From Myxococcales bacterium (GTDB taxonomy: Bacteria > Myxococcota > Myxococcia > Myxococcales > Anaeromyxobacteraceae): DNA of 64,000 nt. A program made the position numbers and the translations under genes. This document shows, one piece after another, positions 46,671-54,066 of this stretch (its first letter is position 1; each line of letters opens with the position of its first letter). The stretch is from positions 186,001-250,000 of the forward strand of contig JAJZQX010000002.1 of NCBI GenBank assembly GCA_021806645.1. Reading direction: 5' to 3'. Under the pieces are notes generated by a model. That model was not told the DNA's origin and searched no databases. It saw nothing but the letters and a program-made list of their open reading frames with translations.

Positions 46671-49100
46671 TTACGTCCCGCCCAGCTTCGCGGTGAGGTC
46701 CCGGTTCTTCTGCGTGTAGCGCGCCACCTCGCCGTTGAGGAAGTCGTTCTCGTCGCGCAGGTCGGAGAGCTCTCCCTCCAGCTCGGCGATGCGGGTCTCG
46801 AGCGCGGCGAGCACGGCACCGTCCACCTCGGCCGGCGGGGCCTCCGCGGTCTCCCTGGCCGCCGCCTCCAGCTCGCCGATGCGCCGCTTCAGCTGCTGCT
46901 CGACCCGGGTGCGCCCCTCGAGGTGGCGCTCCAGCTCGGCGGCCGTCGCCTTGAGCCGCTGCAGGTCGGTGGCGTGGCGCTGCTCCACCTGGGTCGATCC
47001 CTCCCGGAACGTGCCGCGCGCCTGCTCCGCGGCCTGCTGCTCCCTCGCCAGGTCGGCCTGCGCCTGGGCCGCCGCCTGCTGGGCGTCGGCCAGCTTGCGC
47101 TGGACCTGCGCCAGCTCCCCCTCCAGCCGGTGCACGTCCGACTGGAGCTGGCCGGTCTCGATCGAGAGCCGCTCGGCCAGCTTCCCGCGTTCGCTGGCGG
47201 CGGCCTGCGCCGCGCGCGACGAGGCCTCGGCCGCCTGTGTCCGCTGCTGCACCAGCTCCTTCAGGCCCGGCAGCTCCTTGCGCAGCCGGACCGCCTCGGC
47301 GGCCACCGGCTCGAGCGGCGCCAGCCGGGCCACCTCAAGCTCCAGCCGCGCCACGCGCTCGCGGGCCTCGGCCTCCCCGGCCCGCGTCGTCTCCAGCTCG
47401 CCCGCCAGCCGCCGCCCCTCGGCCTCGGCCTCGGCGGCGCGGTGGCCGGCCTCGGCCCGGTCGGCCTCGGCGCGCGCCAGCTCGCCCCGGACGCCCTGCG
47501 CCGTGGCCCGCCCGGCGTCGAGGGCGCCGGCCTGCTCGGCCACGCGGGCCCGCTCCGCCGCCAGCTCCATGTCGCGCGCGGCCAGCGACTGCTCGGCGTC
47601 GCCGGCCCGGGCCAGCGCCGCCTCCAGGTCGGCCCTGACCTGCCGCAGCGAGGACTCCAGCTCCGTGCGGGAGGCCTCGACCTGCTGGAGCTGCTGCTCC
47701 AGCGCCTCGGCGCGCGCCGTCGCCTCGGCCAGCTCGCCGGCGGCGAGCGCCGCCCGTCCCTCGGTCTCGGTGAGCCGGGCCTCCAGCGAGCCCCGCGTCT
47801 CGGCCGCCAGCCGCGCCGCCGCCTCGGCCGCCTCCTCCACCTCGGCCAGCTTCGCCGCGGTGGCGGAGAAGCTGTGCTCCAGCTCGTCGCGCTCGGTGGA
47901 GAGCTCGACCAGCTGGGCCGAGGCCGCCTCGGCCGCGGTCCGCGCCGCCTCGCGATCGGCCAGCCGCTCGGCGTCGAGCTGGGTGAGCGACTGCGCATGG
48001 TCGGCCTCGACCTGGACGCGCGCCTCCTCGATGGCCGCCCGCTCGTCGGCCCGGTCGGCGGCGATGGACTGCAGCTCCCTGACATGGGCCTCCTGGGCCT
48101 CGGCGAACGACTGCTCCACCTCGGCGCGGGCCGCGTCGGCGGCCGCCACCCGGGCCGACCACTGCTGCTCGGCCCGCTCCTGCTCCTGCATGGTCTCGGA
48201 GAGCACCTCGGAGAGCGACTGGCGCGTGGCGTCCACGTCGGCCAGCCGCCGCTCCAGCTCCATCCGCCGCGCCGCGGCGGCGGCCAGCTCCTGCGCCGCC
48301 TCGCCGAGCCGTCCCTCCAGCGAGGCCGCCTGGCTCCTGGCGGCGGCGAGGGTGGCGCGCAGCTCCTCGCCGTCGGTGATGAGCTGGGCCGCCTCGGACT
48401 TCAGCTCGCCGATGGCCTCGCGCAGCCTCGGCATGTAGGTGTCCCTGGCGCGGAGCCGCTCGCGGAAGTACTCGAGCTTCTCCTCGGGCGTCCCCTTGGG
48501 TGGCGCGGGATCGCGCGGCCACTCGGCCAGCACCTGGTCGGCGCGAGGACCGGCGGTCTTGAGCCGCGCCGGCGGCGCCGGCTGCGCGGGGAGGGCGACC
48601 GTGGGGCGAGGAGGTGGGGGAGGCGGACGCGGCGTGGCGCCGGCCGGGGTCGAGGGCGCGGGCGGGCGAGCCCCGGCGGAGGGAGCCGGCCCGGTGGCCG
48701 GGAGCGCGGCCGCCGGCGGCGCGGCGGCGGGATCGGCGTGGAGCAGCCGGGCGGCGTGGCCCAGCAGGTCGGCCATGTCGAGCGGGGCGCGCAGGTAGGC
48801 GTCGGCCCGCCCCTTCGAGGCACGGTGGGCCTCGATGGCGCCGTCGGTGGCCTCGCGCGTGTAGAGGACGAGCGGCGTGGACGGCAACGCCCGCTTGAGC
48901 CGGTTGCAGACCGAGAAGCCGCTCATGTCGGGCAGCTCGGCCGAGAGCAGGATCAGGTGGGGCGGCGAGGCCCGGGTCCGCTCCAGCGCGGAATCGCCGG
49001 CGTCGGTGGAGGCGACCACGAAGCCGGCCGGAGAAAAGGCGGCCCGGATCTCCTCGGCGACGGCGGCGTCGGCTTCGATCAGCAGCACGTTCCAGCTCAT
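46671..49100 (-). CDS. Pseudo-receiver plus long coiled-coil protein (AglZ/FrzS-like layout)
   Basis: An 809-residue protein. Residues 1-120 form a response-regulator receiver fold (WNVLLIEADAAVAEE, LILLSAELPDMSGF, LVLYTREATDG, AYLRAPLDMADLL). The phospho-acceptor Asp is Ser53, one of the two acidic metal ligands is missing (E9-A10-D11) and the conserved Lys is Ala105; only Thr81 remains. It should therefore not be phosphorylated. A Pro-rich linker (about 125-185) leads to a coiled coil of about 600 residues, rich in Ala, Glu, Gln and Arg. The layout matches M. xanthus AglZ and FrzS, which organise gliding and pilus machinery at cell poles. Function by analogy only. Confidence 0.8.
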   Translation of the reverse strand: MSWNVLLIEADAAVAEEIRAAFSPAGFVVASTDAGDSALERTRASPPHLILLSAELPDMSGFSVCNRLKRALPSTPLVLYTREATDGAIEAHRASKGRADAYLRAPLDMADLLGHAARLLHADPAAAPPAAALPATGPAPSAGARPPAPSTPAGATPRPPPPPPRPTVALPAQPAPPARLKTAGPRADQVLAEWPRDPAPPKGTPEEKLEYFRERLRARDTYMPRLREAIGELKSEAAQLITDGEELRATLAAARSQAASLEGRLGEAAQELAAAAARRMELERRLADVDATRQSLSEVLSETMQEQERAEQQWSARVAAADAARAEVEQSFAEAQEAHVRELQSIAADRADERAAIEEARVQVEADHAQSLTQLDAERLADREAARTAAEAASAQLVELSTERDELEHSFSATAAKLAEVEEAAEAAARLAAETRGSLEARLTETEGRAALAAGELAEATARAEALEQQLQQVEASRTELESSLRQVRADLEAALARAGDAEQSLAARDMELAAERARVAEQAGALDAGRATAQGVRGELARAEADRAEAGHRAAEAEAEGRRLAGELETTRAGEAEARERVARLELEVARLAPLEPVAAEAVRLRKELPGLKELVQQRTQAAEASSRAAQAAASERGKLAERLSIETGQLQSDVHRLEGELAQVQRKLADAQQAAAQAQADLAREQQAAEQARGTFREGSTQVEQRHATDLQRLKATAAELERHLEGRTRVEQQLKRRIGELEAAARETAEAPPAEVDGAVLAALETRIAELEGELSDLRDENDFLNGEVARYTQKNRDLTAKLGGT

Positions 49101-49228: not shown

Positions 49229-50092
49229 GTGGCGAGCTGGTCGGCGACCATCGACGTGGAGCGGGGCGAGGCCGAGGAGCTGGCGGCGGCGCTCATGGAG
49301 GAGGGGGCGAGCGGCGTCGAGGTGCGCGACGGCGAGGGGCTGCCCATGCCGGGCGCGCTCCAGCCGGCGGCGGGACGGGCGCTGGTGGTGGCCTGGTTCG
49401 CGGATCGGGAGGAGGGGGCCGCCGCGGCCGGCCAGCGCGGCGTCGAGCTGGAGGAGGTTCCCGACCAGGACTGGGGCGAGCGCTGGAAGGAGGGGCTGGT
49501 GCCGCTCCGGATCGGCCGGGTCTTCGTGAGGCCGAGCTGGATCGCCGCCGGGACGCCGCCCGGGATGGTGGAGGTGACCCTCGATCCGGGCATGGCCTTC
49601 GGCACCGGGACCCACCCGACCACCTCGCTCTGCCTGGCCGCCATGTCGGAGCGGCTCGCCGCCACGCCGCGGGCGCGCGTCCTCGACGTCGGCACCGGCT
49701 CGGGGCTGCTGGCCATCGCGGCGCGCAAGCTGGGGGCGCCGGTGGTGGTGGGGAACGACAACGATCCAATCGCCATCCGCGTGGCGCTGGAGAACGCCGC
49801 GCTCAACGGCGTGCAGGTCCAGTTCGACGAGCGGGACGTCGGCGAGCAGCCCGGGCCGTTCGACCTCATCCTCGCCAACATCCTCGCCAACACGCTCTGC
49901 GAGCTGGCGCCGGCCATCGCCGCGCAGCTCGCGCCCGGCGGCGTGGTGCTGCTCTCCGGCATCCTCACCCCGCAGGAAGCGGAGGTGCGCGCCGCCTACG
50001 TCGCCGCCGGCCTGCGGCCGCTGGCCGGGGGCGACCGGCGCGAAGGGGAGTGGTCGCTGCTGGCGGTGGAGCGTCCGGCGGGCGGGCCGTGA
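49229..50092 (+). CDS. prmA: Ribosomal protein L11 methyltransferase
   Basis: A 287-residue S-adenosylmethionine-dependent enzyme that methylates ribosomal protein L11. The N-terminal L11-binding domain includes VPDQDWGERWKEGLVPLRIG. The Rossmann domain carries MAFGTGTHPTTSLCLAAM, motif I VLDVGTGSGLLAIAARKLGA and motif IV LILANILANTLCELAP. The length is typical (E. coli 293). The GTG start has GGAGGAGG just upstream. It overlaps rsmE by four bases (GTGA), so the two are translated together. Confidence 0.95.
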   Translation: MASWSATIDVERGEAEELAAALMEEGASGVEVRDGEGLPMPGALQPAAGRALVVAWFADREEGAAAAGQRGVELEEVPDQDWGERWKEGLVPLRIGRVFVRPSWIAAGTPPGMVEVTLDPGMAFGTGTHPTTSLCLAAMSERLAATPRARVLDVGTGSGLLAIAARKLGAPVVVGNDNDPIAIRVALENAALNGVQVQFDERDVGEQPGPFDLILANILANTLCELAPAIAAQLAPGGVVLLSGILTPQEAEVRAAYVAAGLRPLAGGDRREGEWSLLAVERPAGGP

Positions 50093-51363: not shown

Positions 51364-54066
51364 TTGCCGCGCGAGCTGCCACAGCTCCTCCTTGACGAGG
51401 GGATCGTTTCGACCGAGGGGCTGCGGCAGGCGTTGACCCGGCAGGGGGAGGCGGGCGGCACGCTCGACACCGCGCTGCTGGAGCTGGGGCTCGTCGCCGA
51501 GGCCCCCCTGGTGGCCGCCATGGCCCGCGCCGCCGGCCTGCCGCCGGCGCCGCTCTCCGCCTACGAACAGGCCGACGCCCGTGCCCGCCGGGTCTTCCCG
51601 TCCAGGGTGGCGGAGCGGCACGGCCTCGCCCCCTTCGCGCTCGACGGCCGCGAGCTCTCGCTGGTGGCCACCTGTCCGGTCGACCTCGGGCTGCTCGACG
51701 AGGTGAGCTTCATGCTCTCCCTCCACCTGGCGCCGCACGTCGGGCTGGAGTGGCGCGTCCGCTCGCTCATCCAGCGGCTCTACGGCGGGCCCCTCCCGCC
51801 GAGGCTGGCGCGGCTGGCCGAGCTGTCCTCCGCCAGCGGCCCCAGCCCCAGCCCCGGGCCCGGCCCCGGGCCCGGCCCCGGCCCCGGCCCCGGCGTGGCC
51901 GACGCGGCGCCCGCGCCGTCTCCGGCGGACCTTGCCGTGACGGAGGGTGAAGTGGTGGCGGCCGGGCCGGCCCAGGGGATCTACCTCGGCCCGGCCATGC
52001 CGGCGGTCAGCGCCGCCGCGACGACGCCCGGCGCGCCGGGCCCGACGCGGCCGCCGCCGGGCCTGGTCGGCTTCACTCGCGACCAGGGCGAGCCGCTCGA
52101 GCCGCTGTCCGCGGCGCTGGCCGAGGCGCTGGAGGCCTACGACGTCGAAGGGTCGGAGCCGCCGCCCGCCACCGCCGCCGTCGCGGGGATTGGGGCCGGA
52201 GCGCCCGGGCCCGGCCCGGCGGCGCCGGCAGAGGCGCCGGACCTGCTCGACCGCTCCGCGCCTCCGCGCTGGACGCTGGAGCAGGCTCGAGCCGTCCTGG
52301 CCCGGGCCCGGACCCGGGACGAGGTGGTGGTCACCGCGCTGCGCTACGCCCGCGACTCCTTCCAGTTCGCGGCGCTCTTCGCCGTGACCCGCGACGCGGT
52401 GGCTGGCCACGACGCGCTCGGCCCCGACGGCGACGCCCGCGACCTGGCCCGCACCGTCGCCATCTACGCCGACGACCCCGGGGTCTTCCGCACCGCCATC
52501 GAGACCAGGGCTCCCTGTCTCGGCCGGGTAGACCGGACCGCGCCGGGGAACCAGGCGGTGCTCGACGCCCTGGGGCGTGGCTCGCCGCGCACCGTGCTGG
52601 TGACGCCGATCCTGCTGCGCCACCGGCCGGTCTGCCTGCTCTACGGTGACAACGCCGGCGCTCCGGTCTCGGTGCGGAGGCTCGGCGACCTGCTGGTCTT
52701 CTGCTCCACCATCGGCGCGGCCTTCGAGCGGATCATCAAGTCGCGCAAGGGGGACGGACCGCCCGGGGGCGAGCCGCCGCTGGCCGAGCCGCCTCCGGAG
52801 CCGCCGGCCGAGGCGCCGGCCGGGACTGCGCCCGGCTTCGTGGCGCGGTCGGAGGCGGCGTGGCGCGGTCCGGGCCGGGGCGCCGAGCCGGTGAGCGCCG
52901 CCGAGGCCGACTTCTTCGCCGCGGGAGGCCAGCTCGAGCTGGAAGAGCTCCACGCCCCGCTCCCGTCCCCGCCTCCGGCCATGGAGCCCAGGGAGGCGCT
53001 CGGCCCGGCGCCGGTGATGGAGCCCGGCGTGGCCGCTGAAGTCGCTCCGCCCCTTTCCGGGCCCGGACCTGAGGAGCAGGCCGCGCCGGAGGCCGAGCCC
53101 GTCCAGGAGCCCGAGCGCCTGCCGCCCGAGCCGCCGGTCAGCGTGGAACCGGAGCCGGTCGCGGAAGCGGTCGCGGCGACGCCTCCCGCCGGCGAGCCGG
53201 AGCCGGAGGGCGTACCGGACGATCCCGCCTATCTCGTCGGCGCCTACCTCACCACGGCTCCCGGGACACCCGCCCGCGGCGACCTGCTGGCCCGGCTGGT
53301 GAACCACGCGGCGGTCGCGGCGCCGATCCTCTGTGAGCTGCTCCCGGGACCGCTGGAGGTGGCGCCGGAGGCGCTCGCCACCACCCCCGCGGCGGAGCAG
53401 GGGCCGGTCTTCGAGGCCCTCGCCGCCATGGGGCATCCGGCCATCCCGCCGCTCCTCGCCGTGCTCACCGACGCCGTCCCGGCCCGGCGCCGCGCCGCCG
53501 CGGCGCTGCTCGGGGCCATCGGCGACCCGGCGACGCTGACGGCGCTGGCCGACCGTTGCCTCGACCCCGAGCCGGAGGTGGCCGAGGCGGCGCGGGAGGC
53601 GCTGGCCGCGCACCGTGGCACACCGGCCGTGCGACCGATCCCGGAGCGGCTGCGACGGGCGCTCGCCTCCGGGCTGGCGGCGCGCGCGGCCGCTGCCGCG
53701 CGGGCGCTGTCGGCGCTGCGCGACGCGGAGTCGATTCCCAACCTGATCCAGGCGCTCGACGGGACCGACCAGGCCACCGCGGCCGCCGCCGCCGAGGCGC
53801 TGTCCGCCATCACCCTGCAACGCCACGGCACGGCGCCTCGCCAGTGGCTGCTCTGGTGGAAGGAGAACCGGGGCCGGGGCCGGGCCGAGTGGCTCTTCGG
53901 TGGCCTGACGGCCGAGGACCGCGAGGTGCGCGCCGCGGCCGCCGCCGAGCTGGCACGGATGGCGCCGCCACCGGTCCCATACTCCCCCGACATGACCGTG
54001 GCGGAGCGGGAGCCGGCGGCGCGCGCCTGGGCCGGCTGGTTCACGCGGAGCGGTTACCGCGTCTAG
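51364..54066 (+). CDS. MshEN (GspE N-terminal-like) / GAF-like / HEAT-repeat protein
   Basis: The 900-residue product begins at TTG, with GGGG about nine bases upstream. Residues 1-150 resemble the MshEN/GspE N-terminal domain (LPQLLLDEGIVSTEGLRQALTRQ, HGLAPFALDGRELSLVATCP), which in some members binds cyclic di-GMP. A Pro-Gly linker follows, then a GAF-like region at about 300-460 (ALRYARDSFQFAALFAVTRDAV, LVTPILLRHRPVCLLYGDNAG) and a long Pro/Glu-rich disordered stretch. C-terminal HEAT repeats lie at about 620-880 (EALAAMGHPAIPPLLAVLTD, LLGAIGDPATLTALADRCL). No ATPase domain is present. Perhaps a cytoplasmic regulator or scaffold. Confidence 0.68.
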   Translation: MPRELPQLLLDEGIVSTEGLRQALTRQGEAGGTLDTALLELGLVAEAPLVAAMARAAGLPPAPLSAYEQADARARRVFPSRVAERHGLAPFALDGRELSLVATCPVDLGLLDEVSFMLSLHLAPHVGLEWRVRSLIQRLYGGPLPPRLARLAELSSASGPSPSPGPGPGPGPGPGPGVADAAPAPSPADLAVTEGEVVAAGPAQGIYLGPAMPAVSAAATTPGAPGPTRPPPGLVGFTRDQGEPLEPLSAALAEALEAYDVEGSEPPPATAAVAGIGAGAPGPGPAAPAEAPDLLDRSAPPRWTLEQARAVLARARTRDEVVVTALRYARDSFQFAALFAVTRDAVAGHDALGPDGDARDLARTVAIYADDPGVFRTAIETRAPCLGRVDRTAPGNQAVLDALGRGSPRTVLVTPILLRHRPVCLLYGDNAGAPVSVRRLGDLLVFCSTIGAAFERIIKSRKGDGPPGGEPPLAEPPPEPPAEAPAGTAPGFVARSEAAWRGPGRGAEPVSAAEADFFAAGGQLELEELHAPLPSPPPAMEPREALGPAPVMEPGVAAEVAPPLSGPGPEEQAAPEAEPVQEPERLPPEPPVSVEPEPVAEAVAATPPAGEPEPEGVPDDPAYLVGAYLTTAPGTPARGDLLARLVNHAAVAAPILCELLPGPLEVAPEALATTPAAEQGPVFEALAAMGHPAIPPLLAVLTDAVPARRRAAAALLGAIGDPATLTALADRCLDPEPEVAEAAREALAAHRGTPAVRPIPERLRRALASGLAARAAAAARALSALRDAESIPNLIQALDGTDQATAAAAAEALSAITLQRHGTAPRQWLLWWKENRGRGRAEWLFGGLTAEDREVRAAAAAELARMAPPPVPYSPDMTVAEREPAARAWAGWFTRSGYRV
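51838..51896 (+). repeat. GC-rich short tandem repeat encoding a Pro-Gly linker
   Basis: Repeats of six-base units (CCCGGG/CCCGGC, preceded by CCCAGC) encode alternating Pro and Gly. Changes by whole units keep the frame, so slippage would alter linker length only. Confidence 0.6.

Follow-up and report, generated by a model that had tools for sequence, protein, structure and literature searches.

PRX, a putative third type of FrzS/AglZ-like pseudo-receiver and coiled-coil scaffold in Anaeromyxobacteraceae

Myxobacteria position their motility machinery with the help of scaffold proteins, among them FrzS, which serves type IV pilus motility, and AglZ, which serves gliding; in both, an N-terminal receiver-like domain is joined to a coiled coil. 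Excerpts of PMC4546325 present the two as paralogues that lack a working phosphorylation site and arose when a FrzS-like ancestor was duplicated once, with AglZ linking gliding to the polarity switch. In FrzS, the substitutions His92Phe and Tyr102Ala are reported in part of PMC1974792 to abolish social motility (S-motility) and to send the protein to the lagging instead of the leading pole, and replacement of Asp55, the aspartate nearest to the phosphorylation site, by alanine to cause no defect. The FrzS coil suffices for polar localisation and its pseudo-receiver binds the pilus activator SgmX (PMC11580455, in excerpt), through a surface composed of helix 3, strand 4 and helix 4 (PMC12632262, in excerpt); the latter source treats the switching of pseudo-receivers and their choice of client as an open question. 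Here we analysed a stretch of 64,000 nucleotides, hereafter the window, from a Myxococcales bacterium of the family Anaeromyxobacteraceae (assembly GCA_021806645.1, contig JAJZQX010000002.1, positions 186,001 to 250,000), in which an initial annotation, made from the sequence alone, had noted a gene for an unphosphorylatable pseudo-receiver fused to a coil of about 600 residues. We gave the gene product the working name PRX. Our data indicate that PRX very probably belongs to the family of FrzS/AglZ-type pseudo-receiver coiled-coil scaffolds, and we lean, with less assurance, towards its being a third lineage of these scaffolds alongside FrzS and AglZ. Whereas the kind of scaffold is already known, the third, separately conserved type would be the new part.

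The PRX open reading frame (ORF) is intact, with an ATG start and no internal stop in its 809 residues. Pfam Response_reg matched residues 5-114 (E 2.8e-14), and the closest solved structure by sequence was the FrzS receiver 2gkg (E 2.3e-13). The AlphaFold2 model of residues 1-122, built with 11 relatives, has a receiver fold with the usual order of strands and helices and a mean predicted local distance difference test score (pLDDT) of 91. Structures nearest to this model were receivers of many kinds, with Z scores of 20.3-20.9 for the FrzS entries and 21.1 for one ordinary receiver; the modelled fold of the head says "receiver" only, FrzS and ordinary receivers being tied. Residues 204-807 showed heptad periodicity exceeding all 1000 shuffles in both of two tests, and a low-confidence model of the full-length protein (mean pLDDT 64.8) was helical at residues 205-225, 242-532, 538-694, 710-745 and 761-807. 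The pseudo-receiver and the coil of the size first proposed were thus both borne out.

The active site was examined in an alignment of 57 rows. As the initial annotation had read it, PRX carries Ser53 in the phospho-acceptor column, retains only one acid of the metal-binding pair (Glu9-Ala10) and has alanine in the column of the conserved Lys105. The alignment moved no other aspartate of PRX into the acceptor column, and the position of FrzS Asp55 is occupied by Glu55. PRX thus lacks both the acceptor aspartate and the Lys105 of an ordinary response regulator. Among ten aligned orthologues from the family, the combination of Ser53 and Ala105 is limited to the window's PRX and the copy from the same genus; Ala53 is found in the remaining eight, of which seven keep Lys105 and one has Gln105. 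Acceptor loss is therefore general to PRX and loss of Lys105 local. Signature residues were counted in 45 pseudo-receiver rows and 21 ordinary receivers of the window's genome: Asp53 was present in none of the former versus 20 of the latter, Lys105 in 31 versus all 21, His92 in all 45 versus one, and Tyr102 in all 45 versus 14. PRX has both residues of the His92/Tyr102 pair.

Receiver trees were computed from a hand-picked part of the matches found, with truncated loci left out; the second tree omits five near-duplicate rows and the ordinary rows L011, L013 and L024, whose extracted stretch ran over a stop. In a comparison set beforehand, the ordinary receivers of the window's genome fell on one side of a branch and did not group with PRX, the split from the pseudo-receivers being supported at 98/96 with seven ordinary rows and at 100/99 with 21. 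AglZ formed a separate receiver clade without PRX (100/100 in both trees). In the first tree the ten PRX rows of the family made up a clade (98/90), which was joined by G076 and G100 from another family of the order (98/94), and PRX, AglZ and two proteins of the family labelled f10 (G060, G194) grouped together at 86/78. The second tree did not recover this last grouping; the approximately unbiased (AU) test did not reject it (p 0.253). Proteins of the f4 and f10 families are possible relatives of PRX and not proven orthologues.

Segments outside the receiver distinguish the three types. As yardsticks we took the proteins of G077, a Myxococcaceae genome in which the FrzS receiver agrees with the solved Myxococcus xanthus domain at every one of 120 residues and the AglZ-type protein is 1395 residues long; AglZ was compared through this protein and six others. 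A 29-residue motif at the coil start of PRX (see table) had its counterpart in 7/7 AglZ proteins (scores 44-59), 4/4 PRX-like proteins (56-71) and both proteins labelled "poly" (45 and 64), and in none of seven FrzS proteins (10-25); one protein of uncertain type scored 45, and the background maximum over 17,816 scanned windows was 30. A segment of the MTEEDRAFLDRTFQSIADRK type that precedes the coil is specific to AglZ, scoring 85-130 in 7/7 AglZ proteins and at most 34 in 20 others, with 16-27 in seven PRX. Likewise, the FrzS C-terminal tail (...YQKIKGDEK...KALAIA...) scored 70-160 in 7/7 FrzS proteins and at most 45 in 20 others, with 23-29 in seven PRX. PRX has a C-terminal tail of its own, with scores of 101-147 in all seven full-length PRX from Anaeromyxobacteraceae and of no more than 37 in 20 others, the four PRX-like proteins included. 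Each of the three types is encoded once in the window's genome, as PRX, as a FrzS-type protein of 535 residues and as an AglZ-type protein of 517 residues. The AglZ/FrzS layout was thus upheld by the trees, the His92/Tyr102 pair and, for AglZ, the coil-start motif, and PRX itself is neither protein. Identity with AglZ was rejected on the missing AglZ-only segment, the position outside the AglZ clade and the separate AglZ-type protein, and identity with FrzS on the missing FrzS tail and the separate FrzS-type gene.

Conservation was measured over five PRX sequences from three genera. The stretch of residues 51-71 was invariant at 95% of its positions, compared with 46% for the whole receiver and the far lower value of the linker given in the table; residues 191-220 reached 63%, the tail 53% and the body of the coil 20%. 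A search model of five PRX receivers found matches in 11 of 24 Anaeromyxobacteraceae genomes (E <=2.7e-63), the next match being of FrzS type (6.5e-31). All 11 PRX-bearing genomes also had AglZ-type and FrzS-type matches, the type having been assigned by tail or segment only for proteins read at full length. PRX was present in the cultured strains Anaeromyxobacter soli SG29, A. oryzae Red232, A. terrae SG22 and A. oryzisoli SG63. A further observation concerns one of the 11, the bin G172, of another genus, in which PRX (L168) lies on a 4.75-kb contig (G172:C195, coverage 1.07) with PRX 96% and PrmA 92% identical to those of the window; it is likely a stray contig.

The coordinates of PRX, its parts and the conserved neighbours are collected in the table.

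Table. Features of PRX and its conserved neighbours, with positions in the window.
Feature	Position	Strand	Basis
PRX, whole gene: pseudo-receiver, proline-rich linker, coiled coil; 809 residues	46671..49100	-	ORF, translation, Pfam
Pseudo-receiver domain, residues 1-122; Ser53, Glu9-Ala10, Ala105; His92 and Tyr102 retained	48735..49100	-	Pfam, alignment, AlphaFold2 model
Best conserved stretch of PRX: receiver residues 51-71, covering strand 3 to helix 3	48888..48950	-	conservation and model secondary structure
Proline-rich linker, residues 123-190	48531..48734	-	10% of positions invariant across five PRX sequences
Coil-start motif PPKGTPEEKLEYFRERLRARD..., residues 200-228; common to AglZ, not FrzS	48417..48503	-	motif scan
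Coiled coil, residues 205-807	46680..48488	-	heptad tests and helix prediction
C-terminal tail ENDFLNGEVARY..., residues 778-806	46683..46769	-	conserved in family PRX
prmA, for the methyltransferase of ribosomal protein L11; divergent from PRX and retained near it	49229..50092	+	Pfam and locus comparison
MshEN and HEAT-repeat protein of 900 residues, after prmA-rsmE-RDD, kept in the family	51364-54066		Pfam and locus comparison

The gene had been noted to lie next to outer-membrane protein genes. Such genes are present in the window, where PRX is followed on the same strand, the nearer at a distance of 31 bp, by genes for a 211-residue protein, which looks like an outer-membrane barrel by eye and has no Pfam or NCBIfam match, and for an OmpA-domain protein. 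Comparison with 16 related loci gave no match to either, and in a genome of the same genus an amino-acid permease gene directly follows PRX; linkage to outer-membrane genes was rejected as a functional clue. The conserved neighbour lies on the other side, where prmA is divergent from PRX at no more than about 250 bp in 10 of 11 loci and at about 1.8 kb in G015, and genes for RsmE, an RDD protein and the MshEN/HEAT protein then follow in all 11. MshEN domains are cyclic di-GMP binders of pilus and secretion ATPases. Outside the family, 13 genomes with a PrmA match were compared, and none had PRX within 1.5 kb of it. In G100, which belongs to another family, a PRX-like gene and prmA (L164, L151) share one 29-kb contig (G100:C30), about 13 kb apart, which may be a remnant of the linkage between PRX and prmA.

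It had also been argued that Anaeromyxobacter-type bacteria are not classic gliders, so that a pole-organising protein raises the question of what it positions. Excerpts of PMC2330069 report surface motility for A. dehalogenans 2CP-C, together with 28 A-motility and 17 pilus-motility genes and a dif cluster containing mglA, aglR and aglS, and Glt homologues are reported for four Anaeromyxobacter genomes in part of PMC3169522. The window's own genome encodes an MglB-like protein (roadblock family 1.2e-16; MglB model 2.9e-23, below cut-off), and directly downstream on the same strand lies a small GTPase gene (Arf family, 25.4 bits, above cut-off), which, by its place and resemblance, we take to be MglA-like. 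A PilT gene (2.3e-113, above cut-off) and a TolQ-TolR-TolR-like cluster (below cut-offs) lie within 8 kb of the AglZ-type gene. The premise that such bacteria have no gliding to organise is thus weak, because a relative shows surface motility and the genome itself has MglA/MglB-like, PilT and TolQ/TolR-like genes. The cluster near the AglZ-type gene (L029:16774-18625) is 64/47/52% identical to a G077 cluster located about 19 kb from aglZ on the same contig, and a second TolQ-TolR-TolR-like cluster (L182:6995-8797, C28) stands beside genes that look Che-like by eye; either may be AglRQS. A weak candidate for the gliding protein CglB is a lipoprotein-like protein (L103:9842-11854, G000:C23) with a partial, sub-threshold match to the CglB model NF033757 of 22.6 bits against a cut-off of 200, and without any NCBIfam match at the default threshold. 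The AglZ-type gene itself (L029:9522-11075, G000:C27) is followed immediately by a gene on the opposite strand. AglZ-type frames have 522 and 537 residues in two genomes of the same genus versus 1336-1396 in six genomes from other genera of the family, and other frames of the family are shorter, some perhaps ended by contig ends. Judged by frame lengths, the AglZ coil seems to be shortened in the window's genus.

Several results weigh against a third lineage with a role in motility. The trees leave open whether PRX is nearer to AglZ or to FrzS and whether the PRX-like rows form a single clade (AU p 0.108 to 0.581). In particular, a grouping of PRX with FrzS was not rejected (p 0.143 in the first tree, 0.108 in the second), and the PRX receiver is more similar to the FrzS type of its own genome (43% identity) than to the AglZ type (38%), while the coil motif points to AglZ. 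Nor did the AU test reject PRX beside the ordinary receivers in these unrooted trees (p 0.209 in the first, 0.581 in the second), and in the second case the constrained tree scored 4.18 log units above the unconstrained one. PRX is also missing from 13 of the 24 family genomes. Eight of these are without a prmA match as well, and the locus may therefore be missing from their assemblies; in the other five (G139, G062, G043, G117, G096), which have no PRX match genome-wide, the absence is not merely that of a contig, because prmA is present. In Myxococcaceae no PRX was called, the best match being 1.1e-20 and in the FrzS-type range (147 genomes of the class, 29 candidates scored per genome); many of the match places there are FrzS places, not each of them typed. 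Finally, no motility gene was recognised among the PRX neighbours scanned, and the conserved prmA-rsmE pair is housekeeping.

Part of this evidence could be accommodated if PRX were an ordinary response regulator in decay, with a coiled coil as its output and no special kinship to FrzS or AglZ. Besides the tie in the fold comparison, the top NCBIfam matches of PRX are ordinary regulators (CreB, CtrA), far below cut-offs, and the unrooted AU result would suit such an origin; that result fits PRX as the first pseudo-receiver branch equally well as PRX among the ordinary receivers. We consider decay very unlikely, in view of the strongly supported branch that sets the ordinary receivers apart, of His92 and the motif shared with AglZ, and of a helix 3 which, unlike in decay, is nearly unchanged among orthologues. 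The shared motif also enters the proposal that PRX is the functional AglZ of the lineage, the true AglZ having been shortened to about 517 residues in the window's genus and PRX having taken over the long coil. AglZ-type proteins of 517 (own), 522 and 537 residues (same genus) compared with 1329, 1395 and 1500 residues in three proteins of other genera agree with such a transfer. We regard it as improbable, since AglZ-type frames of 1336-1396 residues occur alongside PRX in G015, G036, G082, G068, G066 and G168, and since the AglZ-specific segment (7/7 AglZ, 0/20 others) and the separate AglZ receiver clade set the two types apart. Somewhat more room is left for a scaffold that is built alike but works in a different process at the pole or envelope, such as a chemosensory array, secretion, cell division or outer-membrane maintenance, although this too we think unlikely. 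The barrel-like and OmpA-domain genes behind PRX, the lack of a motility neighbour and the RDD and MshEN/HEAT genes conserved beyond prmA-rsmE would be in keeping with it; the former two genes, however, find no match in the related loci and give way to a permease gene within the genus, and the family signatures indicate scaffolds of the FrzS/AglZ type.

On balance we slightly favour a role of PRX in polarity or motility, as a third scaffold lineage beside FrzS and AglZ. By analogy with these two proteins, PRX may organise a cell pole. Its coil would form a dimeric or filamentous rod in the cytoplasm, and tail and coil would anchor the protein at the pole or at an envelope site, unless the tail binds a second partner instead. 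The pseudo-receiver would not be switched by phosphorylation and would recruit a partner through a docking surface extending from helix 3 to helix 4, beside His92 and Tyr102, on the model of the FrzS pseudo-receiver binding SgmX. The partner might belong to a motility or pilus apparatus controlled by MglA/MglB, in which case PRX could be regulated through the state of the partner (e.g. MglA-GTP) or through localisation. What the sequence itself shows is the pseudo-receiver head, the coil and the patches of conservation; dimerisation, localisation, partner and process are our inference. More speculatively, PRX could give the MglA polarity switch a third output arm in some myxobacteria. A scaffold that Myxococcus has lost or never had would then position a machine not studied in that genus, with helix 3 and the tail as specific docking sites.

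We found no third FrzS/AglZ paralogue in the literature searched on Anaeromyxobacter, AglZ, FrzS, MglA and pseudo-receivers, where supplements S6/S7 of PMC4546325 may hold PRX under another label. A third, separately conserved type, if true, would mean further diversification of this scaffold family, of which the Myxococcus model would give an incomplete picture. Moreover, with its small conserved patches and its presence in cultured strains, PRX lends itself to direct study of what switches a pseudo-receiver and how the client is chosen.

Among described proteins, FrzS of M. xanthus (MXAN_4149) resembles PRX in its N-terminal pseudo-receiver without an acceptor aspartate, in the His92 and Tyr102 residues and in the C-terminal coiled coil; it differs in having no TPEEKL-type motif and a C-terminal tail of its own, whereas PRX has a longer coil and a different tail. 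AglZ of M. xanthus (MXAN_2991) shares with PRX the pseudo-receiver, the His/Tyr pair, the proline-rich linker, the TPEGKL/TPEEKL motif at the coil start and the long coil. In contrast to PRX, with serine or alanine at the acceptor position, AglZ has arginine there and an additional segment before the motif. Further FrzS/AglZ-type proteins from other classes of the phylum, labelled "phy" (eight rows) and "poly" (two rows), show the same pseudo-receiver signatures as PRX. Both "poly" rows share the coil-start motif with PRX, and the PRX tail is missing from the two "poly" proteins scanned. The acceptor position is occupied by cysteine in seven and alanine in one of the eight "phy" rows, and by asparagine in both "poly" rows.

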